This document shows positions 2 through 13,260 of a DNA stretch of 14,068 nucleotides, in pieces. Within the stretch, counting starts at the first letter, position 1. Each line of letters opens with the position of its first letter. The notes beneath the pieces are model-generated. The model had not been told where the DNA came from. It saw only the letters and a program-made list of their open reading frames with translations, and ran no database searches. The position numbers were made by a program, and so were the translations under genes. The stretch covers positions 1 through 14,068 of the forward strand of contig DMNL01000127.1 of the NCBI GenBank assembly GCA_003452735.1. The letters run 5' to 3'. The DNA comes from Spirochaetaceae bacterium (GTDB lineage Bacteria > Spirochaetota > Spirochaetia > Treponematales > Rectinemataceae).

Positions 2-652
2 GCGATGCGTGATCAAACCTCCGTCCCCATTTCCATCAAGCTGCGTACTGGCTGGGACCAGAATTCTATCAATTATCTTGAAACCGCAGCTATTGCTGAA
101 GAAGCAGGAGTATGTGCTATAACACTGCATGCCCGGACACGTGCCCAAGGCTATGCAGGCAAAGCGGACTGGGAGGCGATCAAAGCTTTATCTGAGCAAA
201 CCTCTGTCCCTGTATTTGGTTCAGGCGACGTCCTGAGCGCTAGCGCAGCGATGTCTATGATCCGCGAAACTGGCTGCAATGGTGTCATGATAGCAAGGGG
301 AGCTATAGGTAATCCTTTCATATTTTCAGATATTCATGAGTTGGCCCATCGCAGAAATGCCGAGGCATATTCTAACAAACCTCCGTCCCTCTTCCTTGAA
401 AGCCCCTCCAACCCAGAAAGCACTTTCATCTATAGGAGACCAGATATTATAGCTCAAACCGCTCTTCGCCATCTCGAAATGTCTACTAAATATATCGGTG
501 AGACGAGGGCATGCATAGAATTTCGAAAACACTTTTGCGCTTATACAAGAGGTCTCCCTGGAGGAGCTGAATTGCGCGCCCAAGCAGTTCGCTGCTCTAC
601 TATTGATGAGTACAAACCCCTTTTTGAGATAATTACCAGAATATATAGCTAG
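2..652 (+). CDS. dusB: tRNA-dihydrouridine synthase, DusB-like, 5' end outside the window
   Basis: C-terminal 216 residues of an FMN- and NADPH-dependent enzyme that reduces uridine to dihydrouridine in the tRNA D-loop. The frame is open at the window edge, so the ATG at 5 is internal, and the N-terminal FMN-binding part and catalytic Cys loop are missing. Visible family motifs are IKLRTGW, LHARTRAQGYAGKADW, the glycine-rich GSGDV strand and GVMIARGAIGNP (FMN phosphate binding), followed by the helical C-terminal domain (HFCAYTRGLPGG). Three repeat-word copies lie in the frame. Two encode TSVP where relatives usually have SIP/V before a beta strand. The third lies in a segment after IFSDIHE that looks longer than usual. 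The family is clear; the assignment to DusB rather than another Dus subgroup is likely but not certain. Confidence 0.88.
   Translation, partial: AMRDQTSVPISIKLRTGWDQNSINYLETAAIAEEAGVCAITLHARTRAQGYAGKADWEAIKALSEQTSVPVFGSGDVLSASAAMSMIRETGCNGVMIARGAIGNPFIFSDIHELAHRRNAEAYSNKPPSLFLESPSNPESTFIYRRPDIIAQTALRHLEMSTKYIGETRACIEFRKHFCAYTRGLPGGAELRAQAVRCSTIDEYKPLFEIITRIYS
15..28 (+). repeat. Dispersed word copy 1 (AAACCTCCGTCCCC)
   Basis: Full 14-nt consensus, C-rich strand in the sense of the Dus gene; read as Gln-Thr-Ser-Val-Pro. Confidence 0.85.
198..211 (+). repeat. Dispersed word copy 2 (AAACCTCTGTCCCT)
   Basis: Variant with T for C at the seventh and T at the last C-rich position; read as TSVP in the beta strand before GSGDV of the Dus enzyme. 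Confidence 0.7.
377..390 (+). repeat. Dispersed word copy 3 (AAACCTCCGTCCCT)
   Basis: C-rich strand in sense; here in a different phase, read as Lys-Pro-Pro-Ser-Leu in a variable segment of the Dus gene. Confidence 0.85.
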
Positions 653-675
653 ACTGAGCTTATCAAAAGATAATA

Positions 676-2001
676 TCAATTATTAGAGATTAGCCAATCA
701 GGCATTGTCCCTATATATTTCTCAAAAGCAATACGGAAATCTTGATCTATTGCTCTCCTTGAATCAGGATTAGACATCACGCTTTCGAGCCAATGATGCA
801 AAAAATCTCTCGAGAAGTCTTCCCAATAATCTGGAATATGGGCAGGCTCAGGTATAGCAGCCGACAATAATGGGTTTTGTCCATAATCAGGAAAATATCG
901 CAGGAATATAGTTTCATTTACTTGCATTATGCTGCTGAAACCATCAAAGGCACCTACATAATCAGGCAAAAGCTGCTGGGATTCCATTTCCTTCCATATC
1001 TTTTCTTGGTTCGTTGACACCAAGAGCCATCTAGCAAATTCTAAGGCTGCTTTTCGATTTTTTGAGCCCTTAGGAATTCCCATGTATCTCGAATCTGAGG
1101 TCAATATGAGCTTATTTTCTACTGTTGGAAAGCGATACCGAAGCTGTTCTCTTGTTGAGTGAGGAAGCTTGAAGAATTCACTTGCCTTCATAGGCCAATA
1201 AAGCACTTTACCCTCAAGGACAAGCTGGTATCCAGGCTTGTTGAAATAAACAAATGCAAAAGCATCTTGGTCAGATATTCTTATATCAGAATTAAAGGAT
1301 AACAAGACTTCAATAGATTTTTCAAGATTTTGCTTATTCCATAAAATTGGCCACAAGCTCATATCAGCTGATACGGCGGGGACAGAGGTTAGCTTCCAGT
1401 TTTGATTTGGAGCAAAACCGACATTTCCTGCAAGAAGCCAATTCTCAGCAAAACTCAGATCCCACCGTGGAGAAAATCCTAGGCTGCTAATCTTGCCATT
1501 TTCTATCCGAGTAAAAGCTTGAGACGCCTGGCGAATCATTTCGGAATCGAGCATGGCTGTACCAGCCCTAGCGGTTTCAGACTTGTTTTCTATGATCAAT
1601 TCACAATCAAAAGAAACAGGCAACAAGACATGCCTTGAACCTAACTTGCCTGCATTGAGCAATGCTGGATATATATCGTTTGGATCAAGATAATACTTGG
1701 TAAAAAGCTCATCCAATGAGGCGAATTTTTTCAATACAGTATTAGAAAGCATGTACTTTGCAATTATTAGGGACGGAGGTTTAGTGGCATTATTTATCTC
1801 AGAAGCTGGATACGCTTTATATTCTACATCGATGGTATATTGATCATTCTCTCGATTAAAAAGTTGAGCTGCAATGATGAGTTCGGGCATATCTGTCCAA
1901 ATAAGTGCACTTGAAGTAAAATGAACACATGCAGAGCATAAAAGGATTATTATTAGGGCAAATATGCTAATTCCAATGCGAAAAGTGCATCGTCTGTACA
2001 T
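676..2001 (-). CDS. Extracellular solute-binding lipoprotein (family 1-like)
   Basis: A 441-residue protein with a basic N-terminus (MYRRCTFRIG), a hydrophobic stretch at residues 9-21 and LCSAC ending at Cys25. This fits a lipoprotein signal with the relaxed lipobox typical of spirochaetes. The rest resembles ABC sugar-binding proteins in length and in pattern: residues 310-350 carry a YMGIPKGSKNRKAALEFARW segment like the usual AIPKGSKN-K-AA-F--W motif. It would be anchored in a membrane and bind a sugar or other small ligand; the ligand cannot be inferred. No permease or ATPase gene is adjacent, so it is an orphan here. The ATG at 2001 has a GAAGG ribosome-binding site and a candidate promoter upstream. 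It converges on the Dus gene with a 23-bp gap. Two repeat-word copies encode KPPSL (74-78) and TSVP (205-208). Confidence 0.75.
   Translation of the reverse strand: MYRRCTFRIGISIFALIIILLCSACVHFTSSALIWTDMPELIIAAQLFNRENDQYTIDVEYKAYPASEINNATKPPSLIIAKYMLSNTVLKKFASLDELFTKYYLDPNDIYPALLNAGKLGSRHVLLPVSFDCELIIENKSETARAGTAMLDSEMIRQASQAFTRIENGKISSLGFSPRWDLSFAENWLLAGNVGFAPNQNWKLTSVPAVSADMSLWPILWNKQNLEKSIEVLLSFNSDIRISDQDAFAFVYFNKPGYQLVLEGKVLYWPMKASEFFKLPHSTREQLRYRFPTVENKLILTSDSRYMGIPKGSKNRKAALEFARWLLVSTNQEKIWKEMESQQLLPDYVGAFDGFSSIMQVNETIFLRYFPDYGQNPLLSAAIPEPAHIPDYWEDFSRDFLHHWLESVMSNPDSRRAIDQDFRIAFEKYIGTMPDWLISNN
1378..1391 (-). repeat. Dispersed word copy 4 (TAACCTCTGTCCCC)
   Basis: Given in the sense of the lipoprotein gene; CTCTGTCC variant, read as TSVP at residues 205-208. 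Confidence 0.65.
1769..1782 (-). repeat. Dispersed word copy 5 (AAACCTCCGTCCCT)
   Basis: C-rich strand in the sense of the lipoprotein gene; read as KPPSL at residues 74-78. Confidence 0.85.
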
Positions 2002-2036
2002 TTTCCCTTCCTTGAATAGTCTTCATGTATAGTGTC

Positions 2037-2064
2037 ATCATAGTAACAAATCTCTTGCTAGCAA
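2037..2064 (-). promoter_or_regulatory. Candidate sigma70-type promoter for the lipoprotein gene
   Basis: On the minus strand, TTGCTA (2064-2059) and TATGAT (2042-2037) are separated by 16 nt, which would start transcription about 30 nt upstream of the lipoprotein ATG. It lies in the 84-bp divergent gap. The -35 part overlaps the palindrome TTGCTAGCAA (2055-2064), a possible operator. Inferred from sequence match only. Confidence 0.35.
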
Positions 2065-2085
2065 AGATGAAGGTCAAGCAAAATT

Positions 2086-3150
2086 ATGCAACGATCCCTT
2101 GATTCAATAGAAAAAGTAAGAATCAATTGGCACTCTCAATGCTTAAAAGCTCGCTATGGTGAGAAAGTATGGAGATTAGGCCTTGATGCAGGTTTCACTT
2201 GCCCCAATCGCAGTGCAGATCGATTGCAAGGAGGGTGCCGATTTTGCGCCGCAGATGGAAATATTTCAGCATACCAGAAATCACAAACCTCCGTCCCCAA
2301 TAGCAACACTAGTGTTACCAAAGCTATCAATGATAGATCAACTATCGAAGATCAAATCCGCCGCGCTCTCGCTTTTACCCGTCAACGCTATAAGGCAAAA
2401 GCCTTTTTCCTCTACTTTCAGGCATATACTTGTACTAACGCGCCTGTATCTATGCTAGCTAAAATATACAACGATGCCATAAAGACATTCATGCGCATTT
2501 ATTATGATACTCAAAAGCAAGCTAGCGTTGACTTGAAGTTATCTGATATCTCTATGACACCTTTGAAGGGAATTATTGTATCTACACGGCCAGATTGTTT
2601 TGATATAGAGAAGGCAGAACTCTTAGCATCCTATAGAAAACAGGATTTGGAGGTATGGATCGAATTTGGCCTTCAGTCAGCGCACGAGAAAACACTCGCT
2701 TTTATTAATCGAGGTCATGGTATCGATGAATTTCTCATTGCGATGGATATTGCCAAAAAAGCTCAGCTTAATAGAACGGTACATATAATCTTAGGACTAC
2801 CAGGAGAATCTCACAGAGATATGATTGAGACTATTAAATTCGTTGCCCAGATAAAGCCAGAGGGATTGAAGTTTCATGATTTACACCTGGTAAAAGGCTC
2901 AGCATTCGCGCGAAGTTTCCATTCGGGCGAGATTACATTGATGCATCCATCTCGTTTACCGGTTCTTATTGCTGATTGTCTTGAGCTGTTGCCTCCATCG
3001 ACCGAGATTATGCGTTTGTCAGCAGATTTCCGGCCTGAAGAGACAATCAATCTTTCCCCACAAACTGATAAGCACAAACTGGCCCGCGCAGTAGAAGAAG
3101 AACTTTTGGTTCGTGATTCATTTCAGGGACGGAGGTTTGAAATGGACTGA
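2086..3150 (+). CDS. Radical SAM protein, YhcC/YtqA (TIGR01212) family
   Basis: 354 residues. The N-terminus has the family signature RLGLDAGFTCPNR followed by GGCRFC, giving Cys39-x11-Cys51-x2-Cys54 as ligands of the SAM-cleaving [4Fe-4S] cluster. Further matches to E. coli YhcC are YFQAYT, STRPDC, VWIEFGLQSAHEKTLAFINRGH, GLPGE and KFHDLHLVKGS. The family acts on an unconfirmed substrate; a link of the B. subtilis member YtqA to wobble-uridine tRNA modification is my recollection, not verified. That would suit a location between a tRNA-modifying enzyme and tRNA genes. The ATG at 2086 is preceded by AAGG 12 nt upstream, rather far. The protein is longer than the roughly 310-residue E. coli homologue because of extra sequence at residues 60-88 and 145-160. 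A repeat-word copy lies in the first of these (TSVP, 68-71), and another near the C-terminus gives QGRRF. Confidence 0.85.
   Translation: MQRSLDSIEKVRINWHSQCLKARYGEKVWRLGLDAGFTCPNRSADRLQGGCRFCAADGNISAYQKSQTSVPNSNTSVTKAINDRSTIEDQIRRALAFTRQRYKAKAFFLYFQAYTCTNAPVSMLAKIYNDAIKTFMRIYYDTQKQASVDLKLSDISMTPLKGIIVSTRPDCFDIEKAELLASYRKQDLEVWIEFGLQSAHEKTLAFINRGHGIDEFLIAMDIAKKAQLNRTVHIILGLPGESHRDMIETIKFVAQIKPEGLKFHDLHLVKGSAFARSFHSGEITLMHPSRLPVLIADCLELLPPSTEIMRLSADFRPEETINLSPQTDKHKLARAVEEELLVRDSFQGRRFEMD
2285..2298 (+). repeat. Dispersed word copy 6 (AAACCTCCGTCCCC)
   Basis: Full consensus, read as QTSVP in a serine/threonine-rich loop just after the radical SAM cysteine motif, a segment that appears extended relative to E. 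coli YhcC. Confidence 0.85.
3125..3138 (-). repeat. Dispersed word copy 7, G-rich in sense
   Basis: On the + strand AGGGACGGAGGTTT, read as Gln-Gly-Arg-Arg-Phe four codons before the stop of the radical SAM gene. Flanks CATTTCA (3119-3125) and TGAAATG (3138-3144) are inverted repeats, so the word would sit in a hairpin loop. Confidence 0.85.
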
Positions 3151-3180
3151 TAGAGCAATCGATGGTAGCCCTTTCAGCAC

Positions 3181-3209
3181 TTGACAATTACCATGCTTTC
3201 TCGTATTGT
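3181..3209 (+). promoter_or_regulatory. Promoter of the tRNA cluster
   Basis: Perfect -35 TTGACA (3181-3186), 17-nt spacer and -10 TATTGT (3204-3209), about 30 nt upstream of the first tRNA. Strong sigma70-type match in the right place for a stable-RNA operon. Confidence 0.7.
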
Positions 3210-3238
3210 CGATTCTCGCCGACTGGTCTGCTGACATT

Positions 3239-3323
3239 GGAGCGGTGTCCGAGGGGTTTAAGGAGACGGTCTTGAAAACCGCTGTACCGCAAGGTACCGG
3301 GGGTTCGAATCCCCCCTGCTCCG
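3239..3323 (+). tRNA. tRNA-Ser(UGA)
   Basis: 85 nt. The acceptor stem GGAGCGG pairs with CTGCTCC, with one G-U pair. The anticodon loop is CTTGAAA with anticodon TGA at 3273-3275. There is a long variable arm and a T-loop TTCGAAT. The discriminator is G, as expected for serine; CCA is not encoded. Reads UCA and neighbouring UCN codons. Confidence 0.96.
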
Positions 3324-3343
3324 ATTTAAACCATCTGGTCCAA

Positions 3344-3431
3344 GGAGAGGTGCGAGAGAGGCCGAATCGGGCTCCCTGCTAAGGAGTTGTACCTCTAAAG
3401 GGTACCGAGGGTTCGAATCCCTCCCTCTCCG
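3344..3431 (+). tRNA. tRNA-Ser(GCU)
   Basis: 88 nt. Acceptor GGAGAGG/CCTCTCC, anticodon loop CTGCTAA with GCT at 3378-3380, long variable arm, T-loop TTCGAAT, discriminator G, no encoded CCA. Reads AGC and AGU. Starts 20 nt after the previous tRNA. Confidence 0.96.
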
Positions 3432-3440
3432 GTCTTTCGT

Positions 3441-3514
3441 GAGGCTATAGCTCAGCTGGATAGAGCTTCAGATTGCGGATCTGAAGGTCGGAGGTTCGAA
3501 TCCTCTTAGCCTCA
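3441..3514 (+). tRNA. tRNA-Arg(GCG)
   Basis: 74 nt. Acceptor GAGGCTA/TAGCCTC; D-arm GCTC...GAGC with A20 (GGATAG), an arginine identity base. The anticodon stem TCAGA/TCTGA closes a 7-nt loop TTGCGGA, so the anticodon is GCG (3475-3477), which would read CGC and CGU. T-arm GGAGG TTCGAAT CCTCT, discriminator A, no encoded CCA. Most bacteria use ACG (inosine) for these codons, so GCG is unusual. Confidence 0.93.
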
Positions 3515-3522
3515 TTCTTATT

Positions 3523-3608
3523 GGAGAGATGCGAGAGCGGTTGAATCGGGCGGTCTCGAAAACCGTTGAACCCTCTGGGTTCCGGGGGTTCGAATCCCCC
3601 TCTCTCCG
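3523..3608 (+). tRNA. tRNA-Ser(CGA)
   Basis: 86 nt. Acceptor GGAGAGA/TCTCTCC, anticodon loop CTCGAAA with CGA at 3557-3559, long variable arm, T-loop TTCGAAT, discriminator G, no encoded CCA. Reads UCG. Starts 8 nt after tRNA-Arg. Confidence 0.96.
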
Positions 3609-3644
3609 CTATAACAAACCGCAGATTATATCCACGGTTTTCTC

Positions 3645-3673: not shown

Positions 3674-3689
3674 TTGCTTTTTGCAGTCT

Positions 3690-3944: not shown

Positions 3945-5948
3945 ATGCAATTTGAAGTCACGGCAAACCGTAAACGACCACAGACTTTCGAACAACTAGC
4001 AGGTCAAAGCTTTGTATCCTCTACGCTTATTTCATCGCTAGAACAAGGACGCATAGCACATGCCTATCTATTCTCTGGACCGAGAGGATGCGGAAAGACC
4101 AGTACAGCTCGCATACTAGCTAAAGCGCTAAATTGCGAACAAGGTCCTACTGCTCATCCATGCGGGACATGTGATTCTTGCATTTCCATTGCCAATGGTT
4201 CTTCTCTCGATGTTATCGAAATAGATGGCGCATCGAATACATCTGTAGATAATATTAGACAGATCAAGGATGAAGTACTGTTCCCTCCTAATATTGGACG
4301 TTATAAAATCTATATTATAGACGAAGTTCATATGCTATCGATGAGTGCCTTTAACGCGCTCCTTAAGACCATTGAAGAACCTCCGCCATATATTGCATTC
4401 ATATTTGCAACCACAGAACCCCACAAGGTTCCTGCAACTATAAAAAGCCGATGCCAGCAATTCAATTTCAGACTGATTTCTGTAGAGACTATTTTTGAGC
4501 TTTTGAAGCAAGTCGTTTTAGAGACAGGCATCGAAGCAGAGGAAGAAGCGCTATTATGGATAGCTCGAGAAGCTGCAGGCTCTATACGCGATGCTTATAC
4601 CCTTTTCGATCAAATTGCTTCATTTTCTGGCACAAAAATCACTGCTCAGAATATTAGAGAAACGCTCGGATTAGTAGGAATTGAATCTCTTAACGCACTT
4701 TTTCGAGCCATTGCAAAAGGAAACTCCCAGGATGCATTTCTTATCCTAGATGATATTATTATGCGGGGTGTTTCTCCTGAACAATTCTTGACAGATGCTG
4801 TGAATTATTGTCGTTCTGTGTTGCTTATAATGAACGGCATCCAAAAAGAAAACCTAATAATTGCCCCTCATACAGTATTCGAGCCTATAGTTATTGAGTC
4901 TCTTTCGAAAGCCCAAATCGAATATTCTATTGCTCTACTTCTTGATACATATCGACATCTCAAAGAAAGCATAGAACCACGATACGAAATCGAATTGACC
5001 ATTGCCAAATTGTGCCACCTCTCATCATATATTAGCCCTCTTGAATTATTTGACATGCTTCATAACATTCAGCAGCTCTTTAAAAAAAACGAAATACGCG
5101 CTTCAAGCTTGAACGAAATTGGATCTCCCGAGTCAATAATTAAAGAAACGATCAATAGCAAATCTTCTGATAAACAAATACCGTTATCCGAATTAAGAAA
5201 GAAAATCATCAGCAAATTGCGAAGCCAAAACCTCTTCCTGGCTTCGGCTCTAGAAAAATCAGCAGAATGGCAACCTAAACACAATGGCATAATCATCCCA
5301 GTCTCAAATCGGGTTGAGATGGACATCATTTTGCGATTTGAATCTTTCATTATAGAGACAGCTACCCAAATTCTAGGAAAACCATGTGCAATCGAAGTCC
5401 GACATTTATCAGTTCAAGAAAACCACGAAAATAATGAAAATAGCGACCTCCGTCCCCCGTTACAGACAAACACCCAATCAAGTGAACCACAACCACAGAC
5501 CTCCGTCCCTCAAAACGGAGAGACTATTCAAGGAGAAATTGACAAGAAAAAAACTACTAATGAAAGGACTCCTCAAGGACAAGATTCTTTGCTGAAAGAA
5601 AACATAGGGTTATCAGGTGAGAAGGGGGATAGCCCCGACTCTTTTGAGCTTCCTTTAGAGACCAATGAAATAGGATTTTCTAATAATGATGAGAAGATAA
5701 AAAGCGGTAATGGGATTCAATGCTCAGATGCCTCAGAACAAAACAAGCTTACAGAATCAGAGGCTCATCTTGTAGATGTTGTGCGCAAGGTCTTCAAGGG
5801 TACAGTGGTGGCAACAAAAGTTACCCATGAGCCTTCTATTCTCGAAAAATCGTCCTTATCTTCTAATTTATCAAGAAATACCTCATATTCATCTGAACTC
5901 TCTGAACAATCAGAAGAATTCGCTGATATGCAGGATGAAGAAATCTAG
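3945..5948 (+). CDS. dnaX: DNA polymerase III subunits tau/gamma
   Basis: 667-residue clamp-loader ATPase of the replisome. It has Walker A GPRGCGKT (45-52), four zinc-binding Cys (64, 73, 76, 79), Walker B IIDEVH (124-129), sensor-1 ATTEP (155-159) and the arginine-finger SRC motif (168-170). The collar domain III runs to about 370. Beyond it lie a conserved-looking domain (about 395-485), a long low-complexity linker with two repeat-word copies (RPP and TSVP) and a short C-terminal segment (LVDVVRKVFKGTVVATKV). The start is chosen because FEVTA...RPQTF is the expected N-terminus; no ribosome-binding site is visible before it. An A8 run at codons 380-382 could yield a truncated gamma-like form. 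First gene of the dnaX-ybaB-recR set, 44 bp after the SRP RNA. Confidence 0.97.
   Translation: MQFEVTANRKRPQTFEQLAGQSFVSSTLISSLEQGRIAHAYLFSGPRGCGKTSTARILAKALNCEQGPTAHPCGTCDSCISIANGSSLDVIEIDGASNTSVDNIRQIKDEVLFPPNIGRYKIYIIDEVHMLSMSAFNALLKTIEEPPPYIAFIFATTEPHKVPATIKSRCQQFNFRLISVETIFELLKQVVLETGIEAEEEALLWIAREAAGSIRDAYTLFDQIASFSGTKITAQNIRETLGLVGIESLNALFRAIAKGNSQDAFLILDDIIMRGVSPEQFLTDAVNYCRSVLLIMNGIQKENLIIAPHTVFEPIVIESLSKAQIEYSIALLLDTYRHLKESIEPRYEIELTIAKLCHLSSYISPLELFDMLHNIQQLFKKNEIRASSLNEIGSPESIIKETINSKSSDKQIPLSELRKKIISKLRSQNLFLASALEKSAEWQPKHNGIIIPVSNRVEMDIILRFESFIIETATQILGKPCAIEVRHLSVQENHENNENSDLRPPLQTNTQSSEPQPQTSVPQNGETIQGEIDKKKTTNERTPQGQDSLLKENIGLSGEKGDSPDSFELPLETNEIGFSNNDEKIKSGNGIQCSDASEQNKLTESEAHLVDVVRKVFKGTVVATKVTHEPSILEKSSLSSNLSRNTSYSSELSEQSEEFADMQDEEI
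5082..5113 (+). promoter_or_regulatory. Possible slippage site for a gamma form of DnaX
   Basis: Eight A residues (5082-5089) followed by C are read Lys-Lys-Asn at codons 380-382, just after domain III. A -1 shift gives a stop after about 18 codons and a +1 shift after 7, so either makes a roughly 390-400-residue product. A 12-nt palindrome TTCAAGCTTGAA (5102-5113) follows. E. coli (A6G, ribosomal) and Thermus (A9, transcriptional) make gamma by slippage at comparable A runs. Inference; no upstream stimulatory Shine-Dalgarno is seen. Confidence 0.35.
5446..5457 (+). repeat. Dispersed word copy 8 (ACCTCCGTCCCC)
   Basis: Third C-rich phase, read as Leu-Arg-Pro within DLRPPLQ in the DnaX linker. 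Confidence 0.8.
5499..5510 (+). repeat. Dispersed word copy 9 (ACCTCCGTCCCT)
   Basis: Read as TSVP in the DnaX linker, 53 nt after copy 8 but in a different reading phase, so the pair is not a tandem duplication of one coding unit. Confidence 0.8.
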
Positions 5949-5975: not shown

Positions 5976-6329
5976 ATGGATCTTTCGAATATTATCGACA
6001 TGCTAAAGAATCCACAAGCATTAAAAATGCAAGCTGAAGAAATGCAAAAAAAAATGAACGCTATTCAAGCTACAGGACAGGCCGGAGGCGGCATGGTCAA
6101 AATTACTCTTTCAGGAAACATGGAATTGCTTGAATGCCTAATTTCTCCTGAGCTTTCAGATTTAAAAGATATACCTTTGCTTCAGGATCTCATTCGGGCT
6201 GCCCATCATAATGCTACGGAAAAGATAAGAGAAGCTATCCAAAAAGAATTTGCTGGCTCATTAGGAGAATTTAGTACGAGCATCCCATTTGGAAACTTCC
6301 CCGGCAATTTCACGGGGACGGAGGTTTAA
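5976..6329 (+). CDS. ybaB: YbaB/EbfC family nucleoid-associated protein
   Basis: 117 residues. N-terminal helix with Met/Gln-rich NPQALKMQAEEMQKKM, then the conserved GQAGGGMVKITLSGNMELLECLISPEL and a C-terminal helix, matching the small DNA-binding EbfC dimer family. Its gene sits between dnaX and recR in most bacteria. The ATG at 5976 follows GGAGG (5967-5971), 27 nt after the dnaX stop, so cotranslation is likely. The last codons and the stop are formed by a repeat-word copy: GTEV then TAA uses the final T of the word, making a tail that may have been reshaped by the repeat. Confidence 0.93.
   Translation: MDLSNIIDMLKNPQALKMQAEEMQKKMNAIQATGQAGGGMVKITLSGNMELLECLISPELSDLKDIPLLQDLIRAAHHNATEKIREAIQKEFAGSLGEFSTSIPFGNFPGNFTGTEV
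6314..6327 (-). repeat. Dispersed word copy 10, G-rich in sense
   Basis: + strand GGGGACGGAGGTTT, read as Gly-Thr-Glu-Val followed by TAA, so the word supplies the C-terminus and the first base of the stop codon of ybaB. Confidence 0.85.
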
Positions 6330-6414: not shown

Positions 6415-6427
6415 GGGGACGGAGCTT
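6415..6427 (-). repeat. Dispersed word copy 11 (intergenic, GCT variant)
   Basis: + strand GGGGACGGAGCTT, in the 145-bp ybaB-recR gap, same orientation as copy 10 and 101 nt from it. The rest of the gap shows no other feature apart from a doubled AAGCTTCT (6328-6343). Confidence 0.7.
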
Positions 6428-6474: not shown

Positions 6475-7077
6475 ATGAAATCAATCGAAGATCTCGTTTC
6501 AATTCTCACAAAACTGCCTGGAATTGGACGAAAAAGCGCTCTGAGGATTGCATATGCTCTATTAAGATCTGATATCTCTTTCAGCGAAGCCCTTGCTGAG
6601 AGTATTTTAATGCTGCGTAAAACTGTGCGTTTTTGCTCCGAATGTGGTTCTTATGCAGAAACTGATATTTGCCAAATCTGTTTAGATAATTCCCGCGATC
6701 GAAGTATTATCTGTGTCGTAGAACAACCACAAGATGTATTTACAATTGAAACATCCAGGGAATATAGAGGCCTCTATCATGTTCTGGGAGGGCTACTTTC
6801 TCCTTTGGAAGGTATTGGTCCTGAGTCTCTAAGCATAAACAAGCTTATCCAGCGCATACACAATTCTTTTTCAACCTCCGTCCCCATACAGGAAATAATT
6901 ATTGCAACAAATCCAACAGTCGAGGGAGATACTACTGCCCTATATTTAAAAAAATTGTTTGAAAAAGAGCTTGTGTCAGTTACGCGATTAGCTACTGGTA
7001 TTCCTGTAGGGGGTGATCTTGAGTATGCAGATAAACTTACTCTTGCTCGATCCTTCCGAGGAAGAGCGCCTCTTTAG
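6475..7077 (+). CDS. recR: Recombination mediator protein RecR
   Basis: 200 residues from the chosen ATG, the usual family length. N-terminal helix-hairpin-helix LPGIGRKSA (14-22), zinc finger Cys54-x2-Cys57...Cys66-x2-Cys69, and a Toprim domain with VVEQPQDV, GLYHVLGG and IIIATNPTVEGD (acidic residues), ending in RLATGIPVGGDLEYAD and RSFRGR. RecR works with RecF/RecO to load RecA on gapped DNA. The frame extends upstream to a TTG at 6436, but AAAAGG lies 8 nt before the ATG at 6475 and family alignment begins there. A repeat-word copy encodes TSVP (134-137) just before the Toprim strand EIIIATN. Confidence 0.96.
   Translation: MKSIEDLVSILTKLPGIGRKSALRIAYALLRSDISFSEALAESILMLRKTVRFCSECGSYAETDICQICLDNSRDRSIICVVEQPQDVFTIETSREYRGLYHVLGGLLSPLEGIGPESLSINKLIQRIHNSFSTSVPIQEIIIATNPTVEGDTTALYLKKLFEKELVSVTRLATGIPVGGDLEYADKLTLARSFRGRAPL
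6873..6885 (+). repeat. Dispersed word copy 12 (AACCTCCGTCCCC)
   Basis: Read as STSVP in RecR, in the short loop before the EIIIATN strand of the Toprim domain, where relatives vary. Confidence 0.8.
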
Positions 7078-7115: not shown

Positions 7116-7541
7116 GTGATTATAGAGTATAATATTCCTCGATTGGATTTCTTTGCTGCAGGCAAGACTTCAACAGATCTCAAACATCGATTGATACAGC
7201 TCGGTTTACCGCCTCCATTGATTAAGAGAATTGCCATCGCGGCCTACGAAGCAGAAATGAATATTGCAATCCACGGGGACGGAGGTCGAGCAGAAATTGA
7301 TATTTCAAAAGATAAGATTACTACCCGCTTTATCGACCATGGCCCAGGTATCCCAGATATCGAGCTTGCAATGCAAGAAGGGTATTCAACTGCTCCTGAA
7401 GAGATCCAAAATATGGGATTTGGTGCTGGAATGGGATTGCCTAATATGAAAAAGAATGCAGATGAGCTAATCATTCAAAGCGAGCCAAATAATGGCACAA
7501 CTGTAGTAATGCATTTCAACTTATTTTCTGGAGAGTCATAA
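7116..7541 (+). CDS. RsbT/SpoIIAB-like ATP-binding regulator (HATPase_c)
   Basis: 141 residues, a single GHKL ATPase domain. The N-box is EAEMNIAIH (45-53), the G1 box DHGPG (74-78) and the G2 box GFGAGMGLPNM (101-111), with a C-terminal beta strand GTTVVMHF. Such proteins are serine kinases or anti-sigma/anti-anti-sigma switch proteins. The start is GTG at 7116 with AGGGA about 10 nt upstream. Its stop is immediately followed by the GTG of the hydrogenase-like gene, so the two are translationally coupled and likely work together. In clostridia a similar ATPase is found beside HydS-like genes (recalled context). A repeat copy reads GDGG (54-57) directly after the N-box His. The target is unknown. 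Confidence 0.85.
   Translation: MIIEYNIPRLDFFAAGKTSTDLKHRLIQLGLPPPLIKRIAIAAYEAEMNIAIHGDGGRAEIDISKDKITTRFIDHGPGIPDIELAMQEGYSTAPEEIQNMGFGAGMGLPNMKKNADELIIQSEPNNGTTVVMHFNLFSGES
7275..7286 (-). repeat. Dispersed word copy 13, G-rich in sense
   Basis: + strand GGGGACGGAGGT, read as Gly-Asp-Gly-Gly after the N-box of the ATPase. Gly-Gly is common at this place in the family, so this copy may be chance-assisted. Confidence 0.6.
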
Positions 7542-8972
7542 GTGGATCTGGAATCTAGGAATCAACCTCAAGCTATTCTTCCGATTTTTCATTCTGTTCA
7601 ACTTGATACAGACCTGTGTGTTGGCTGCACCACCTGTATAAAATTTTGCCCAACCAAAGCTATTCGTGTCAAAAATGGAAAAGCAAAAATATTTGAAGAT
7701 CGCTGTATAGACTGTGGTGAATGTATCCGCCGATGTCCTAAAGGAGCAAAAAAGGCAATTTCTGACCCGATTTTTTTAATGGATGGTTATGATCTCAAGG
7801 TCGCTTTACCAGCTCCGTCCCTTTACGCTCAATTTGGTCCAAAATATCGTCATTCAGATATTTTCAATGCACTTCATAAATCTGGCTTCGATGAGGTTTT
7901 TGACGTTGCATGGGGAGCACTTGTCGTAACAGAGATGACTCGCAATTTGCTCTCCCAGACAGACCTAAGGCCTCGCATTTCAAGCGCTTGCCCAGTCGTT
8001 GTACGACTTATCCAACAGAGATTTCCAAGCTTGATCCCGAATCTCGTGCCTATTCTTCCGCCTTTTGAAATAGCAGCTAGAGAAGTGCGAAACAGATTAA
8101 ATCATCTATCAAAGAGAATCGGGATTTTTTTCCTTAGTCCATGTACAGCAAAAGTGACCGCAATCAAGATGCCATTAGGATATGAATACTCTGCAATCAA
8201 TGCAGTGTTTTCGTTTGGCAAAGTATATAGGCTGATCAAGCGCGCGCTCGATCCTCTGTACTCATTAATTTCGCCCCCATCTCGTTTGCCATCTGATTCA
8301 GAATTACCTTCTATAAGAATTGATGATATCTTATATGAGCCGCATGCACAGCCCCTATCTCAACATCTATTACCTATAATAGATAATTTGGATTCGGGAA
8401 TAGGTTGGGCACGATCAGATGGAGAACTAGATGCGCTCCATATAGAAAATGCAGTCTCTGTCGATGGCATTTCTAATGTCATAGAGCTATTGGAAGCTAT
8501 CGAAAATGGCAATACTGACTCTATTGAATATGTCGAAGCACTTGCTTGTCCTGGTGGCTGTGTAGGTGGACCGATGGCAGTAGAAAATCCATATATTGCC
8601 CGCTCGACAATTCGCCAACGATACCGCTCTGCTGCCCTTGTTTCTGCTGTTCCCCAGCCTTTCTTGGATGGCTATCAAAATATTAAAGAAGAATCTAGAC
8701 CTCCGTCCCCAAAATCTATAGAAAAAGAATATGAAGCATTTAGATGGAACAAACCTCTGTCCCCAAACCCTGTCCTTGTCCTAGATAAGGACCTATCGAA
8801 AGCTCTCGAAATGGCAGAAAGAATCGAATATATAAGAGGCAAACTTCCAGGAATCGATTGCGGAGCATGTGGCGCACCAGATTGTGATTCATTCGCAGAG
8901 GATATTGTTCGTGGCTTGAGCACTCTGGACGAATGTATTCTTCTCGCTGATCAAGATATCAATCAATCATGA
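7542..8972 (+). CDS. Sensory [FeFe]-hydrogenase-like iron-sulfur protein
   Basis: 476 residues. An N-terminal ferredoxin domain binds two [4Fe-4S] clusters (Cys26/29/32/36 and 55/58/61/65). A hydrogenase large-subunit domain follows with degenerate H-cluster motifs: SSACP (Cys150), SPCTAK (Cys201) and ALACPGGCVGG (Cys336, Cys340). All four H-cluster ligand Cys are present, but the usual TSCCPxW has Ala149 in place of the proton-relay Cys and lacks the Trp. A C-terminal FeS domain has Cys440-x2-Cys443-x4-Cys448-x16-Cys465. There is no PAS domain. This pattern suits a redox or hydrogen sensor, not a catalytic hydrogenase (inference). GTG start abuts the preceding stop, with GGAGAG 7 nt upstream. 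Two repeat copies fall in the linker at 386-408 and one at residues 90-93. Confidence 0.82.
   Translation: MDLESRNQPQAILPIFHSVQLDTDLCVGCTTCIKFCPTKAIRVKNGKAKIFEDRCIDCGECIRRCPKGAKKAISDPIFLMDGYDLKVALPAPSLYAQFGPKYRHSDIFNALHKSGFDEVFDVAWGALVVTEMTRNLLSQTDLRPRISSACPVVVRLIQQRFPSLIPNLVPILPPFEIAAREVRNRLNHLSKRIGIFFLSPCTAKVTAIKMPLGYEYSAINAVFSFGKVYRLIKRALDPLYSLISPPSRLPSDSELPSIRIDDILYEPHAQPLSQHLLPIIDNLDSGIGWARSDGELDALHIENAVSVDGISNVIELLEAIENGNTDSIEYVEALACPGGCVGGPMAVENPYIARSTIRQRYRSAALVSAVPQPFLDGYQNIKEESRPPSPKSIEKEYEAFRWNKPLSPNPVLVLDKDLSKALEMAERIEYIRGKLPGIDCGACGAPDCDSFAEDIVRGLSTLDECILLADQDINQS
7811..7822 (+). repeat. Dispersed word copy 14 (AGCTCCGTCCCT)
   Basis: GCT variant of the word, read as Ala-Pro-Ser-Leu at the start of the hydrogenase-like domain (ALPAPSLYAQF). 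A PAPS/A sequence is common at this site in the family, so assignment to the repeat is less sure. Confidence 0.5.
8699..8710 (+). repeat. Dispersed word copy 15 (ACCTCCGTCCCC)
   Basis: Read as RPPSP in the linker between the hydrogenase-like domain and the C-terminal FeS domain. Confidence 0.85.
8751..8764 (+). repeat. Dispersed word copy 16 (AAACCTCTGTCCCC)
   Basis: CTCTGTCC variant, read as KPLSP in the same linker, 40 nt after copy 15. Confidence 0.75.
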
Positions 8973-9127: not shown

Positions 9128-10570
9128 TTGAATAAAAAGGATTTTCCTCATATTCACTTCTATGACCAGGATTTTGTCGATATTTATGATCGAACATGGG
9201 CATGGATTGCTGATTGCTGGACAAATGGAGGTAGCCAGACCAAAATCAGCAAAATCAGATTCTTTTATTACCCTTCAGCGAAGACTCTTGATTTTCTGGA
9301 GCAAGTCTTTTCCAGTTTCTTTCTAGTATATAGCAATCGGATTTACCCAGCATCAAATGGACTAGATGCACTTTATGCGCTTCAAGAGCCCGATGGTGCG
9401 ATTCGCAATGCCTATGATATAGAGACAGGAGTTCCTATTCTCCCCAAAGATAATCCTCTTGGCGTAACACTTCCCCTGCTCTCATGGGCAGAGTTTAATC
9501 TCTACCATAAGACAGCCAATAAGAAGAGAGTAAAAGAAATAATGCCAGCACTGAGCAATTATTACAAATGGCTTGAGGCTAATTTCAAAATGCCGAACGG
9601 GCTTTTTGCTACTCCTCTTTCTTCTACAGGCATGGAAAATTCTCCGCGTTCAGAGGCTAGATATTTTATAGACTTCAACGCAGCCATGGCTATGAATGCC
9701 CTATATTTATCTGCTTTGGGAGACATTCTGAATGATAAGGACGCTTCTTTTCAATATAAAAGAGACTATTTTTCTATAAAAACAAGAATCAATTCGAAAA
9801 TGTGGAATCCAGAAGATGGTTTCTATTATGACCTAGATGAAGATGAAATTCAGATTCGGACAAAGACCTTAGGGACATATTGGCTTCTTTTGGCAGAAAT
9901 ACCAAATGAAGAGCGCGCAGAAAAACTAATTGCCAAGCTAAAAGACCCTTCCTGTTTTGGTACTGAAAACCCCTTCTCATCGCTTTCGGTCGATCACCCT
10001 GCCTTTGATAAAAAGGGTCAGGGATATCGAGGGAGTGTTTTCCCATGGCTCACATTCATGGTCATCAAGGGACTGGAAAAATATTATTTTTATGAACTTG
10101 CTAGAAACTCAGCCATAAGGCATCTCTATTATATTTTGGATTCCATGCATAACAGCGATCAGGAAGCGAACAAGCGCAGCAACCATCCTACCGTGTGGAG
10201 CGCTTATCAGCCTATGAATGAAGGGAAAGCCATTTGGGAAGAACATCCAGATTGGCCTCTGCCAAATCATTTCCCATCTAATGGCCTTAGCACGGTTACC
10301 TTGATAATAGAAAATGTCATTGGGCTATATATATCTCTGCCCAGAAAAACGGTCGATTGGATAATTCCCAATCTTGAAGCAATGGGTATTGAAAACCTCT
10401 CTCTTAAGCGCAATATGATCACCATTCTTTCAAGCAAATCAGGAAGAGGATGGGAAATCCATATGGAAAGCGAGAAACTATATTATTTTACCATCAATGT
10501 ATTGGGGAAAAAGAAGAAAACTCTCCCGATACCGTCTGGAAAATGCTCAATGCTCATTGACAAGATATAG
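9128..10570 (+). CDS. GH63/trehalase-like (alpha/alpha)6 glycoside hydrolase
   Basis: 480 residues, no signal peptide, so probably cytoplasmic. The barrel is recognised by NGLFATPLSSTGMENSPR (157-174, the GMDNSPR-type motif carrying the general acid), DFNAAMAMNALYL (182 onward) and YRGSVFPWLTFMVIKGL (300-316, the YWRGPVWP-type motif). IWEEHPDW (369-376) is placed like the general-base region. A beta-rich tail follows. The usual Asp of GMDNSPR is Glu170, so activity or specificity may differ. Relatives hydrolyse trehalose, mannosylglycerate or glucosyl-mannose linkages; the substrate cannot be told. Start TTG at 9128 with GAGGG 8 nt upstream. It has its own promoter, no partner gene, and no copy of the repeat word found in nearly all neighbouring genes. 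Confidence 0.72.
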   Translation: MNKKDFPHIHFYDQDFVDIYDRTWAWIADCWTNGGSQTKISKIRFFYYPSAKTLDFLEQVFSSFFLVYSNRIYPASNGLDALYALQEPDGAIRNAYDIETGVPILPKDNPLGVTLPLLSWAEFNLYHKTANKKRVKEIMPALSNYYKWLEANFKMPNGLFATPLSSTGMENSPRSEARYFIDFNAAMAMNALYLSALGDILNDKDASFQYKRDYFSIKTRINSKMWNPEDGFYYDLDEDEIQIRTKTLGTYWLLLAEIPNEERAEKLIAKLKDPSCFGTENPFSSLSVDHPAFDKKGQGYRGSVFPWLTFMVIKGLEKYYFYELARNSAIRHLYYILDSMHNSDQEANKRSNHPTVWSAYQPMNEGKAIWEEHPDWPLPNHFPSNGLSTVTLIIENVIGLYISLPRKTVDWIIPNLEAMGIENLSLKRNMITILSSKSGRGWEIHMESEKLYYFTINVLGKKKKTLPIPSGKCSMLIDKI

Positions 10571-10624
10571 GAAAACAAGCCTTGCGCTAACTTTAGATCT
10601 TGGAGTCGAGAATGATACGAAATG

Positions 10625-10664
10625 TTAAAAAAGAAATTTGGAATTTAAAGGAAATTTCCAAATT
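10625..10664 (-). terminator. Intrinsic terminator downstream of pyrH
   Basis: Perfect 9-bp stem AATTTGGAA/TTCCAAATT (10635-10643 with 10656-10664), loop 12 nt. On the minus strand it is followed by TTTCTTTTTT. The stem is AT-rich but the U tract suits termination of the pyrH transcript; there is no U tract on the plus side. Confidence 0.6.
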
Positions 10665-10705
10665 CGAGTATCTCTTCAAGCTGACCAATGTAAAGCACGA
10701 TAAAT

Positions 10706-11437
10706 TCAATCAATTATTGTCCCAATAAATGGTTTATCATTGAGAATATCAGCGAAATTCATCAAGTTCTTCCCTGATGCAAATATGACGGTAATACCGA
10801 GTTCCCGAGCTTTGGCTGCTGCAATTGGATCGAAAGGTACATTTGCCCCAGGATCCCATTCAGTCCCAATCATCTGTAAAAGCGAATCAAAAGATATATG
10901 AAGAAGTGGCTTTGCATTAGGATCTACTTTTGGATCAGCGCTATAAATCTGAGAAACATTTGAAAGATTCAATATCTTTTCTGCATGAAAGCGCTCAGCA
11001 AGAATAACAGCATCATAGTCTGTAGAAAACCCTGGCTTCCAGCCAGCAGCAATCAGTATTCTGCTGTTCATTGTAATGTCGGCGGAAGGATCTGTTACTA
11101 TTGGATCTCGACTATAGTCAGAAAAAACCTCCTTAATTAACTGTGCATTGAGCCTTGTTGCTGCAATGCCTATTCTATCAAGAGATTGGCGAACATCAAC
11201 ATCTGTGCCTAAGATTGGTCCTCCGTCCCCTCTAGTTGACTTATCTATTTCAATCATTTCCTTATAGGCCTTTTGCCACTGACGAGCTGCATAACCTCCA
11301 CCAACCACTATGATCACCTTGTGATCCTCTCTATTTAGCCAGGAGAGTAACACGTTCCTGAAATCATATAAGAATAGGCCGCTGGGACCTTCTTGTGGAG
11401 CAACTATTGAACCGCCTAAAGATATTACAATAGTCAT
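10706..11437 (-). CDS. pyrH: UMP kinase, archaeal/spirochaete type
   Basis: 243 residues of an amino-acid-kinase-fold enzyme that phosphorylates UMP to UDP in pyrimidine synthesis. Motifs: N-terminal ISLGGSIVAP (5-14), IVVGGGYAARQW (43-54), DRIGIAATRLNAQL (87-100) for UMP binding, GWKPGFSTD (132-140), and NLSNVSQIYSADPK with VPFDPIAAAKARELGI near the nucleotide site. It is closer to the short archaeal form than to the standard bacterial PyrH. ATG at 11437 has a strong AAGGAG 7 nt upstream. The segment 66-85 between VVGGG and DRIG appears longer than in relatives I remember and contains the repeat-derived GDGG (70-73). It follows the RocB-like gene by 45 nt, probably one operon. Confidence 0.88.
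   Translation of the reverse strand: MTIVISLGGSIVAPQEGPSGLFLYDFRNVLLSWLNREDHKVIIVVGGGYAARQWQKAYKEMIEIDKSTRGDGGPILGTDVDVRQSLDRIGIAATRLNAQLIKEVFSDYSRDPIVTDPSADITMNSRILIAAGWKPGFSTDYDAVILAERFHAEKILNLSNVSQIYSADPKVDPNAKPLLHISFDSLLQMIGTEWDPGANVPFDPIAAAKARELGITVIFASGKNLMNFADILNDKPFIGTIID
11220..11230 (+). repeat. Dispersed word copy 17 (CCTCCGTCCCC)
   Basis: G-rich in the sense of pyrH, read as Gly-Asp-Gly-Gly at residues 70-73, inside a probable insertion. Confidence 0.75.
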
Positions 11438-11482
11438 CGTTATTCTCCTTAGTATTTATATAACTTATAATTTCATAAAAGA

Positions 11483-13144
11483 TTATTTAAGCTGTATTAG
11501 TATTCTTTGGCAAATTCTAAATACCAAATCTGGCAAAACATTGAAAGCATAGTAGCGATTTACTCTTTCTCCCCATTGATGATATTCCCTACCCCATGGC
11601 CCAATATTAATTACAGGTGCCTTAATAAAATTATCCAGATACTTGTCCAAATCCTTCTGAATTACCGCCGATTGCTTTTTTATGTATTCTATCGAATGAC
11701 TTTCTATTGATGGTGCTAGAATACTCATATCCGAAATACCAGGGAAAAAGGGACGGAGCTTTATTGATTCTTGATATTCCCTATTGAACTGTGCAATCTC
11801 ATCTTTGAGCAGTATTAAGAAATCTTGGTCTCTTTTTAAACCTAATTCAGCTTTTGCATAAAAAGGAGGAGCAAAGCCAACAATTGCACAGGGTCCTTCA
11901 ATTTGGGCAAATGAAAGCAATTCATGAACAATTTTAGCTGTTTGCAGCACAGGATCTTCTGGATTGTTCTTTTCAGCTGCCTTTCTTAGACGATCTAAAA
12001 TACCTGGTGCAACATATTCAGCTTTATTAACTAATTCAGAAAAATCTACAACTTTGGAAGAGAACTTTTGCATTGCAATATGTTCATTCTTTTTTCTGGA
12101 AAAAACAGATTTTCTTTCATAAAAGAGAGAAATAGCATTATTTAGTGTCTCTTGCACAAGCAATTTGAAATTTTCAAATATTTTTTCGGGTTTCTTTTCA
12201 AAGGTCAAAATGTTCACAGCGCAGAATATGTCAAAAGGCATAGTTACATCATAATGTGTCCGCATATCTCGGCTGTAGAGAATAGTTGGCGGAGGCGGTT
12301 CTTCTCCGGGAAAGCTAGTACGAGTACCAAAGCAGTCACTATTGCATTCTATTTCTCTCATAAAAAGAGAAGCAGCTAACACCGGGTTAAAGCCATCAAA
12401 AGGTGCTCCTGCGTGAGCTGGTTTTCCAACAAATAGAGCAAATGGAAGAACTTTACTAACTGATCCGAGAAATACAGCTTTGCCTTCACCTCCGTCCCCT
12501 TGATCGACTGCAGCATCTAAATTAATTATTCCTTTCATCTGAAGCTGATGAGAACTAATGAAATCTGAGAGAATCTTCTTAGCTGCTTTCATACCAACAG
12601 AAGATCCCTCTTCATCTGGAACAGCTAAGAAAATGATATTCCCAATCCTACCAGGATCTCCCAAGAATCTAGAGATCACAGTAATTGCAACAGCTAGTCC
12701 ACTTTTCATATCTAGGATGCCCCTGCCCGGAATGAAGAAACCGCTTTCCAAATCCTTTTTTAGAGATATTTCTGAAGGCGAAAGGCTCTCTTTAGCAGAA
12801 AGTATTTGTAGCATTTTTTTCAAAAGTGTATCTGGATCAAAAGCAAGCGGCTCTAAGGCTCCATAATTGCTTGTATCAACTACATCATAATGTCCTGTAA
12901 GCGTTATACATGCTTGCCCTTCTCCTGGAGCAAAAGCAATTACAATTCTCCGTTTCCACTCATCCTCAGAAATCTCAAATTCTTGTACAAGGTTTGGCCT
13001 TTTACTAAAGAAGGGTATTTCTAGAAGAACAGAAATAAGGAAATCAGGATAGGATAATTCTCCTGAGGTTTTCGTTATGCTAGCAAATTTGGCCAATCGA
13101 ATCGCGAGAGACTGAGTATCTATATTACTGTTTCTATTTATCAT
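11483..13144 (-). CDS. RocB-like M20 family metallopeptidase/deacylase
   Basis: 553 residues. Di-zinc hydrolase signatures: TGHYDVVD (His85, Asp87), GILDMKSG (bridging Asp145), PDEEG (Glu178 general base, Glu179), NLDAA (Asp210) and C-terminal REYHQWGERV (His522). GSVSKVLPFALFVGKPAHAGAPFDG and EEPPPPTIL...MRTHYDVTMPFD match the RocB-type subgroup, known from Bacillus arginine catabolism loci but without a settled substrate. It is expected to be cytoplasmic; no signal peptide is seen. ATG at 13144 has no clear ribosome-binding site. It probably forms an operon with pyrH. Repeat copies give GDGG (216-219), where relatives often also have a GD, and LRP near residue 463. Confidence 0.8.
   Translation of the reverse strand: MINRNSNIDTQSLAIRLAKFASITKTSGELSYPDFLISVLLEIPFFSKRPNLVQEFEISEDEWKRRIVIAFAPGEGQACITLTGHYDVVDTSNYGALEPLAFDPDTLLKKMLQILSAKESLSPSEISLKKDLESGFFIPGRGILDMKSGLAVAITVISRFLGDPGRIGNIIFLAVPDEEGSSVGMKAAKKILSDFISSHQLQMKGIINLDAAVDQGDGGEGKAVFLGSVSKVLPFALFVGKPAHAGAPFDGFNPVLAASLFMREIECNSDCFGTRTSFPGEEPPPPTILYSRDMRTHYDVTMPFDIFCAVNILTFEKKPEKIFENFKLLVQETLNNAISLFYERKSVFSRKKNEHIAMQKFSSKVVDFSELVNKAEYVAPGILDRLRKAAEKNNPEDPVLQTAKIVHELLSFAQIEGPCAIVGFAPPFYAKAELGLKRDQDFLILLKDEIAQFNREYQESIKLRPFFPGISDMSILAPSIESHSIEYIKKQSAVIQKDLDKYLDNFIKAPVINIGPWGREYHQWGERVNRYYAFNVLPDLVFRICQRILIQLK
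11749..11760 (-). repeat. Dispersed word copy 18 (AGCTCCGTCCCT)
   Basis: GCT variant, C-rich in sense; read as Lys-Leu-Arg-Pro-Phe near residue 463 of the RocB-like protein. Confidence 0.6.
12488..12499 (+). repeat. Dispersed word copy 19 (ACCTCCGTCCCC)
   Basis: G-rich in the sense of the RocB-like gene, read as Gly-Asp-Gly-Gly in the loop after NLDAAVDQ. Confidence 0.8.
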
Positions 13145-13246
13145 ATAGATGCTACTCTATCATAAATTTAAAAGCTTAGTTGAGTATTTAGAAAAAATGA
13201 TGACATTCCTAGACGTAATAAAAAGTCATAAAGATCCAAATAACAA

Positions 13247-13260
13247 GGGGACGGAGGTTT
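13247..13260 (-). repeat. Dispersed word copy 20 (intergenic)
   Basis: + strand GGGGACGGAGGTTT, full consensus, 219 nt upstream of the RAYT start and in its orientation. The internal GGAGG lies 8 nt before an ATG at 13266. Confidence 0.85.

Follow-up and report, generated by a model that had tools for sequence, protein, structure and literature searches.

Genes for REP-associated tyrosine transposases (RAYTs) are common in bacteria. Their function is an open question, and the spread of the repetitive extragenic palindromic (REP) sequences with which they are associated is poorly understood. Here we describe a RAYT-type gene and a short DNA word that recurs around it in a stretch of 14,068 nucleotides from a Spirochaetaceae bacterium (contig DMNL01000127.1 of assembly GCA_003452735.1, positions 1 to 14,068), referred to below as the window. 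Short exact words that are present in many copies in genes and arise by substitution are known as DNA uptake sequences in Neisseria and Pasteurellaceae, where they are genome-wide. The matS/MatP, parS/ParB and Chi systems likewise rely on short dispersed words recognised by a DNA-acting protein; to our knowledge, none of them depends on a linked transposase.

The closest described systems combine a Y1 HUH transposase with short sequences of its own. In Di Nocera 2013 (PMC3733652), TIRYTs, or TIRtrons, are Y1 transposase genes that lie between terminal inverted repeats (TIRs), and the motif GGGGWSAS is common to some of these repeats. The parts of Quentin 2018 (PMC6006769) that deal with these genes link TIRYTs to subclass 2.1, and report no REP-like sequences by genes of subclasses 2.1 and 2.3. 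According to PMC8266576, TnpAREP enzymes, that of E. coli among them, cut single-stranded DNA close to their REP and join strands in vitro, making a 5' phosphotyrosine and a 3'-OH, and PMC3116915 describes REPs as extragenic, and REP doublets as randomly distributed over the genome. Compared with these systems, the word in the window is unusual in that it fills the surroundings of the transposase gene. We are close to certain that the word is tied to the RAYT, and regard it as highly probable that its upkeep depends on a RAYT linked to it.

A recurrent word clustered at RAYT genes

The window contains 20 matches to CCTCCGTCCC with at most one mismatch (14 exact, three CCTCTGTCCC and three GCTCCGTCCC), where 200 dinucleotide shuffles give a mean of 0.25 and a maximum of 2. 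An initial annotation, made from the letters of the window, had reported these 20 repeat places and likened them to uptake sequences. All 20 are confirmed, at positions that agree within a few bases, and the counts of 14, 3 and 3 are borne out, with one correction. Since the three “CTCTGTCC” copies are the C/T variant of one word, the core of the word is CTCYGTCCC, and the pooled copies read (A)(A)(A)CCTCYGTCCCY, plus some GCTC forms. As had also been noted, most copies lie inside genes: 18 of the 20 are in 12 accepted open reading frames (ORFs), in all frames and on both strands. The share of words inside genes roughly matches the share of the DNA that genes occupy, as judged from 40 of 48 words in ORFs that cover 84% of the DNA in the own genome (G000), 54 of 60 in 85% in its relative G007, and 34 of 40 and 27 of 31 in two further sets with 82% each.

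The presumed agent is encoded at 13479..13967 on the plus strand, a Y1 HUH transposase of the RAYT/TnpAREP type with 162 amino acids, assigned by Pfam, NCBIfam and PDB profile matches. The protein matches Pfam Y1_Tnp over residues 13–127 (45.6 bits, cut-off 23), and no second Pfam family was found at E 0.001, a threshold at which a divergent domain could be missed. All eight genus members match NCBIfam NF047646 (REP-associated tyrosine transposase), the window protein with 71.9 bits and thus under the cut-off of 80, and a profile built from the eight members matches TnpAREP (PDB code 4er8) at E=3e-5. His63 and His65 of the HUH motif and Tyr123, Asn127 and Pro128 of the Y---NP motif, which contains the catalytic tyrosine, are invariant across the eight. 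As regards a comparison with IS200/IS605 insertion sequences, the own genome has one full RAYT copy, and the members within the genus are 48–91% identical. The contig ends 101 bp past the gene.

The own genome, assembled to 1.31 Mb in 176 contigs (79% complete), belongs with its close relatives to a genus that we infer to be Rectinema (Spirochaetota). It holds 34 exact copies of CCTCCGTCCC, against 2 for the reversed control, all on six contigs (C27, C48, C120, C132, C133 and C138, the last being the window). C120, C138, C132 and C48 are collinear with about 195–253 kb of contig C4 of G007, C133 meets the same C4 stretch by one ORF at 264.5 kb, and C27 is unplaced. This collinearity implies that most copies of the own genome belong to a single chromosomal cluster. 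It also speaks against contamination or a chimeric bin as the cause of the few word contigs, as four of the six are collinear with one G007 segment and a fifth touches it by one ORF. Among 58 genomes including the own, ACCTCCGTCCCY was counted 28 times in G000, 49 in G007, 28 in G004 and 25 in G002, with lower counts in G009 (12), G008 (11), G001 (10) and G005 (4), and controls of 0–2 for the genus set. In this exact form it is nearly absent from two genus members (G003, 0; G006, 1), and other genera have at most 6 per genome, often no more than their own control.

RAYTs were found in six of the ten genus genomes, each time inside a word cluster. The clusters are those of G007 C4 (where the gene is broken), G007 C7, G004 C164, G002 C55, G002 C42, G006 C44, G006 C64 and G009 C137. 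They contain 20–68 words per examined stretch, with reversed controls of 0–2, and the totals on two long G007 contigs are 122 versus 14 and 54 versus 3. Both cluster flanks are visible at G007 C4, G007 C7 and G002 C42, and several of the other RAYTs are near contig ends. Around the RAYT there is one word per roughly 0.4–1.3 kb over about 10–50 kb, on both strands. On G007 C4 (605 kb), 53 of the 122 words lie within 25 kb of the RAYT where 10.1 are expected, a number equalled by 134 of 5000 random centres. Two IS200-like Y1 loci have no word cluster (0 words in 28.5 kb and 1 in 20 kb). A 33-bp tandem array with units that contain the word is seen at the ends of G004 C164 and C206 (L051:19932-20006 and L053:7168-7209); these ends are similar to each other and may adjoin on the chromosome.

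The distribution bears directly on a genome-wide DNA uptake word, an explanation for which density, coding location and substitution origin of the copies would speak; the first two likenesses, pointed out in the initial annotation, do stand. What does not stand is the genome-wide part. A genome-wide count, of the kind that the annotation had proposed as a check, gives 34 exact copies, and within the 1.31 Mb these occupy 6 of the 176 contigs, in clusters that mostly surround Y1 transposase genes; G007 word counts peak in a few zones of long contigs, with 0–2 words per 10 kb over the first 160 kb of C4. With the words confined to clusters, the uptake reading does not survive the check set for it, and competence genes offer no explanation for this distribution: ComEC is found in eight and DprA in nine of the ten genomes of the genus, among them G001, G008 and G009, in which the word is decayed. 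Neither was detected in the incomplete G000, and since the two families also match in 10 and 11 of 14 control genomes, their presence says little. For the genus, the distribution refutes a genome-wide uptake word, which we hold to be extremely improbable. The accompanying guess of a recombination word survives in a new form, as a word tied to a linked HUH nuclease.

Retention of the word and base composition around the gene

Retention was read from codon alignments of the recR region, with gapped sites (0 to 5 per pair) set aside. In the 12 directed pairs among the RAYT-bearing genomes G000, G002, G004 and G007, the last with a broken gene copy, 76–96% of the aligned words are kept (24/27, 13/14, 28/33, 25/26, 13/14, 22/25, 12/13, 13/15, 20/23, 28/36, 22/29 and 22/26); G000 to G002 with 13/14 and G000 to G007 with 28/33 are examples. 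These pairs have 68–70% DNA identity and keep 5–7% of random 9-mers, with the exception of G000–G004 (87% and 32%). From G007 to relatives without a detected linked RAYT, only 5 of 48 words are kept in G009, 9 of 32 in G008 and 7 of 30 in G001, compared with 22%, 20% and 24% of random 9-mers, respectively, and these relatives are closer (79–82% identity); the word here wears away as other DNA does. The lost copies are mostly 1–3 bases off (19/23 in G001, 19/23 in G008 and 35/43 in G009).

The state of the RAYT place differs among the three relatives. In G009 an IS1595-like (ISXO2) element (L240:9078-9731) occupies the position at which relatives carry the RAYT. In G008, collinearity in the examined stretch stops at this position, and the only Y1 match of the genome is an IS200-like gene elsewhere. 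In G001 no Y1 gene was found, in an assembly that is 71% complete and in which the contig ends before the RAYT place, which makes its RAYT state less certain. G009 has a second RAYT on C137 with a word cluster of its own; a related RAYT at another locus was thus not enough to preserve the first cluster. The collinear regions with and without transposase thus look like natural knock-outs, in which dozens of words in core genes are letter-perfect only where the RAYT is present, and the question of what a RAYT does to its chromosome becomes directly testable.

The shape of conservation agrees with this picture. Across the 115 word instances of five directed RAYT-bearing pairs, identity is 0.78–0.97 in columns -3 to +9, with 0.71 in the C/T column, and 0.63 in the flanks. 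The block conserved across species is thus 13 columns wide and consists of nothing but the word, and the earlier statement that the flanks lack conservation holds. No conservation peak is seen in the 113 instances compared from G007 to the three RAYT-free genomes (0.67–0.84, flanks 0.77). One-mismatch words in nine RAYT-bearing cluster sets number 78 where 89.8 are expected, beside 333 exact words; this sum includes G006 C64 and excludes the G007 C4 cluster with the broken RAYT (25 versus 29.3, beside 60 exact). In two G008 clusters one-mismatch words are in excess (58 versus 37.8 expected, beside 29 exact). A depletion of one-mismatch words below chance, suggested by a permuted-template control, was withdrawn, as the better control from the same genome gives the chance level overall, 78 versus 89.8.

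A linked transfer drive, in which the RAYT nicks words and frees single strands that recombine into other cells, so that word alleles near a RAYT are passed on more, would account for the locality, the substitution origin and the loss after RAYT loss, and most genus genomes have ComEC and DprA. Against this, the RAYT at this place looks vertically inherited in G000, G002, G004 and G007, as judged from synteny, and we consider such a drive improbable.

The surroundings of the gene are also shifted in base composition. Approaching the RAYT on G007 C4, third-position GC drops from 0.65 to 0.36; in RAYT-free G009 the corresponding genes have values of 0.54–0.56. The two genomes no longer differ at distances above about 25 kb to one side and 10 kb to the other, and G008 gives the same result as G009 except in two small bins. 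At fourfold sites of conserved residues compared between G007 and G009, 437 are AT in G007 and GC in G009 from -5 to +10 kb of the RAYT, versus 177 the reverse, and the numbers at -45 to -25 kb are 300 versus 299. The identity of fourfold sites is 0.44–0.53 near the RAYT and 0.51–0.77 elsewhere. AT-rich valleys are likewise present at the RAYTs of G002 C42, G007 C7 and G009 C137 (on one side), and hence at four of the five clusters examined. RAYTs may prefer AT-rich sites. The two IS200-like Y1 loci mentioned above say little about valleys, because one of them is AT-rich throughout.

Copies in the window and at other spirochaete loci

The word-bearing genes of the window include five that we take, from the look of their proteins, to be dus, dnaX, ybaB, recR and a HATPase gene, and others named by Pfam (solute-binding-protein-like, radical-SAM, Fe-hydrogenase-like, amino-acid kinase and M20 peptidase). 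The solute-binding-protein-like gene (676-2001), beside dus, is below the Pfam cut-off for SBP_bac_1. Three copies on the plus strand are located in dus, at 18..27 and 201..210 (T variant), both within a TSVP peptide, and at 380..389 in the peptide KPPS; the first of these is kept in G004 and G007. The solute-binding-protein-like gene has two copies on the minus strand (1379..1388, a T variant, and 1770..1779), and the radical-SAM gene one on each strand (2288..2297, plus; 3126..3135, minus). Two plus-strand copies are in dnaX (5447..5456 and 5500..5509), and G004 is without an intact word at the second. On the minus strand, 6315..6324 is at the 3' end of ybaB and 6416..6425, a GCTCC variant, is intergenic. 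They are followed by copies in recR (6875..6884, plus strand, peptide TSVP) and in the HATPase gene (7276..7285, minus strand). The Fe-hydrogenase-like gene contains three copies on the plus strand, a GCTCC variant at 7812..7821 that has one mismatch in G004, a copy at 8700..8709, and a T variant at 8754..8763. Further downstream are 11220..11229 (plus) in the amino-acid-kinase gene and, in the M20 peptidase gene, 11750..11759 (minus, GCTCC variant) and 12489..12498 (plus). The copy nearest upstream of the transposase, at 13248..13257 on the minus strand, is intergenic and has its G strand reading toward the gene, a TIR-like position; the G004 RAYT ortholog has a G-strand word 219 bp upstream. 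The peptides encoded by the copies also include LRP, GTE and GDGG. As a warning for annotation, recurrent peptides such as TSVP, KPPS and GDGG in these genomes can be DNA-level words and not protein motifs.

Several copies allow their origin to be traced. The HATPase copy encodes HGDGG in G000, G004, G007, G002 and G001, with HGGGG in 9/9 aligned outgroup rows (from 19 outgroup loci) and unchanged length; HGGGG is also found in G006, G008 and G009, and HGEGG in G003. In the Fe-hydrogenase-like gene, the word at 7812..7821 spells the largely conserved PAPSL, which is exact in 5/8 outgroup rows. The RecR peptide TSVP has the same length with and without an exact word inside the genus, and the outgroup G014 has ESVP at this length; in other outgroups the loop varies in length. 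The dnaX and ybaB-tail copies are in stretches too variable for the origin to be read. Where it is readable, the alignments indicate that copies arose by base substitution and not by insertion.

These alignments bear on local transposition, where the word would be a minimal element that inserts near its mobilising gene. The RAYT/REP precedent, the word-containing tandem array of G004 and the location of the dnaX and ybaB-tail copies in variable stretches are consistent with it. It is disfavoured, at the sites that can be aligned with outgroups, by the HATPase and Fe-hydrogenase copies, which align to outgroups without length change, by the constant length of the RecR peptide in the genus and G014 (the loop does vary in the remaining outgroups), and by site 8754, which is an ungapped non-word in G007. 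Local transposition is accordingly a very unlikely explanation.

A scan of named contigs, from which the best 80 of 336 loci were taken (78 titled spirochaetes and 2 only “bacterium”), shows how general the observations are; the 80 loci are not independent because several share a genome. At least four CTCYGTCCC words are present in 57 of the 80 RAYT loci, and in these 57 the strand of the words depends on the distance to the gene. Within 0–100 bp upstream of the RAYT there are 43 G-strand versus 4 C-strand words, and at 300–500 bp downstream a weak preference for the C strand (11 versus 4). Summed beyond 300 bp the strands are about even, with 148 G to 168 C upstream and 141 G to 165 C downstream. 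With the word upstream of the RAYT as query, and thus a word not picked for its count, 67 loci give 406 further copies versus 15.5 for letter permutations, and 37 of the 67 reach p<0.01. Furthermore, the upstream word and the cluster word vary together (tails GAGG, GAGC, GACC and others). Of the 46 loci in which an upstream word is accompanied by a tail that occurs at least four times, 32 have the commonest five-letter tail of the cluster also in the upstream word, compared with a mean of 12.3 and a maximum of 22 in 10,000 permutations. The mean GC at the gene is about 0.05 under the locus mean in named loci of at least 15 kb (32–39 per bin). In L226 and L235, from one genome, the local word is GGTCAGACC-like and near-palindromic in place of the GGGAC word. 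Between the upstream word and many RAYT starts, a TGAAGCA or CAAGCA motif appears by eye to recur in L159-L238.

Spread of the word array to other phyla was considered for plasmid loci with distant Y1 relatives (4 examined of 15 records) and rejected. Two of the four are without such a word and one has other repeats. The fourth, plasmid pTPELB2 of Acetoanaerobium noterae (L260:1265-21297), has 14 AACCGTCCCT around a distant Y1 gene, and because their flanks are mostly conserved (ATCA..., ...TGATT), these repeats are REP/TIR-like, a family of longer units in Bacillota that shares the GGGACGG core.

The position of the upstream word invites an explanation by plain selection, where the words would be operators, decoys that titrate the RAYT, or local nucleoprotein sites, each under weak selection. 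This would agree with the operator-like place of the word upstream of most RAYTs, with the near equality of strands beyond 300 bp (148:168 upstream and 141:165 downstream), with upkeep that goes with the linked RAYT, and with words that in several pairs fall in less conserved protein stretches. It would, however, require selection on dozens of sites individually, it leaves unexplained the changed glycine motif of the HATPase (HGGGG in 9/9 aligned outgroup rows), and by itself it does not explain the AT-biased valley around the gene. We regard plain selection as unlikely, if to be taken seriously.

Proposed mechanism and comparison with known systems

A word that is near-perfect with the RAYT and worn away where none was detected suggests an enzyme that rewrites its own chromosomal neighbourhood. 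The word is probably what the neighbouring RAYT-type Y1 HUH transposase recognises, and this enzyme would act in cis to maintain and spread it. For upkeep by cleavage and conversion in cis, rather than plain selection or a transfer drive, we see a chance slightly short of even. In such a scheme the RAYT protein would bind and nick the word on single-stranded DNA, a chemistry known for TnpAREP, and would do so in the neighbourhood of its own gene. After nicking, strand transfer or patch repair from another word could turn near-matches into words and restore damaged words, and the exposed single strands could give the AT-biased change. A more specific and tentative proposal is that the Y1 HUH enzyme is a local sequence writer that, with its own word as template, converts near-matches to exact copies and repairs mutated copies within tens of kb, without insertion, and with AT-biased mutation in addition. 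The observations point to a local process able to change a conserved residue, going with a base-composition shift over some 20 kb.

Several observations weigh against a RAYT that keeps its word in cis. Starting from G000, G004 and G002, RAYT-free relatives keep 10–27% of the words versus 4–6% of random 9-mers, a sign that decay is only partial. At the orthologous place G006 carries a RAYT that is 59% identical, but of the word sites of the others it keeps few (2/10, 2/10, 5/16 and 4/21), although it has words in its GCTC form elsewhere. At this place 91% of its words are GCTC, in place of a CCTC majority, and no other genome is as distant (60–64%). In G007 the RAYT is broken although its words are well preserved, a combination that calls for a recent break or an error in sequencing. 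About 65 kb of G007 C4 (510–575 kb, L078-L081) hold 31 CTCYGTCCC, but neither a Y1_Tnp gene nor a GC dip was found in this stretch, which may be a cluster without its transposase or a remnant. G006 C64 (49 words) has an excess of one-mismatch words (17 versus 6.9) and no clear AT valley, and G007 contigs show third-position GC dips without a RAYT, for example 55–65 kb left of the C4 gene. Among the named loci, 30 of 67 miss p<0.01 for copies of the upstream word and 13 of 80 are without GGGACR within 260 bp upstream. Finally, a local effect would be illustrated by one case, the second RAYT of G009, which failed to keep the first cluster.

With respect to known systems, a search of openly licensed papers (titles and abstract starts) returned no local word array around a RAYT or TIRYT and no spirochaete uptake word; a Thiomargarita paper that contains GGGGACAG was discarded, as the letters are a polymerase chain reaction primer. 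Unlike DNA uptake sequences, the present word is clustered, mostly around transposase genes, and it differs from Chi in having no strand bias beyond 300 bp of the RAYT gene. In analogy to REP/REPIN systems, as presented in the relevant parts of PMC3116915 and PMC8266576, there is a dedicated RAYT with matching short sequences, and one word type per RAYT. The REPs described there are palindromic, extragenic and spread over the genome, whereas the present word is non-palindromic, ignores gene borders and clusters near the gene. Of the REP hairpin hallmarks looked for in the letters of the word, none was seen: self-complementarity and a GTAG are both lacking, and conservation does not extend into the flanks.

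As in TIRYTs, the protein is a HUH Y1 transposase. A G-strand word lies upstream of the gene and, less often, one on the C strand downstream; GGGGWSAS is matched by GGGGACAG, the A form of the word, but not by GGGGACGG. The window protein has 162 amino acids, compared with a reported median of 238 for subclass 2.1, and the C-terminal helix-turn-helix of that subclass was not found in it by Pfam at E 0.001, where a divergent domain could be missed. Furthermore, the word fills tens of kb of mostly coding DNA, is kept with the gene, and decays where the gene was not found. GGGGWSAS terminal repeats beside such genes are known, and no local, coding-indifferent and transposase-dependent array turned up in the openly licensed literature searched. 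Transposase type and terminal motif are common to the present array and the described systems; place, form, origin and dependence differ.

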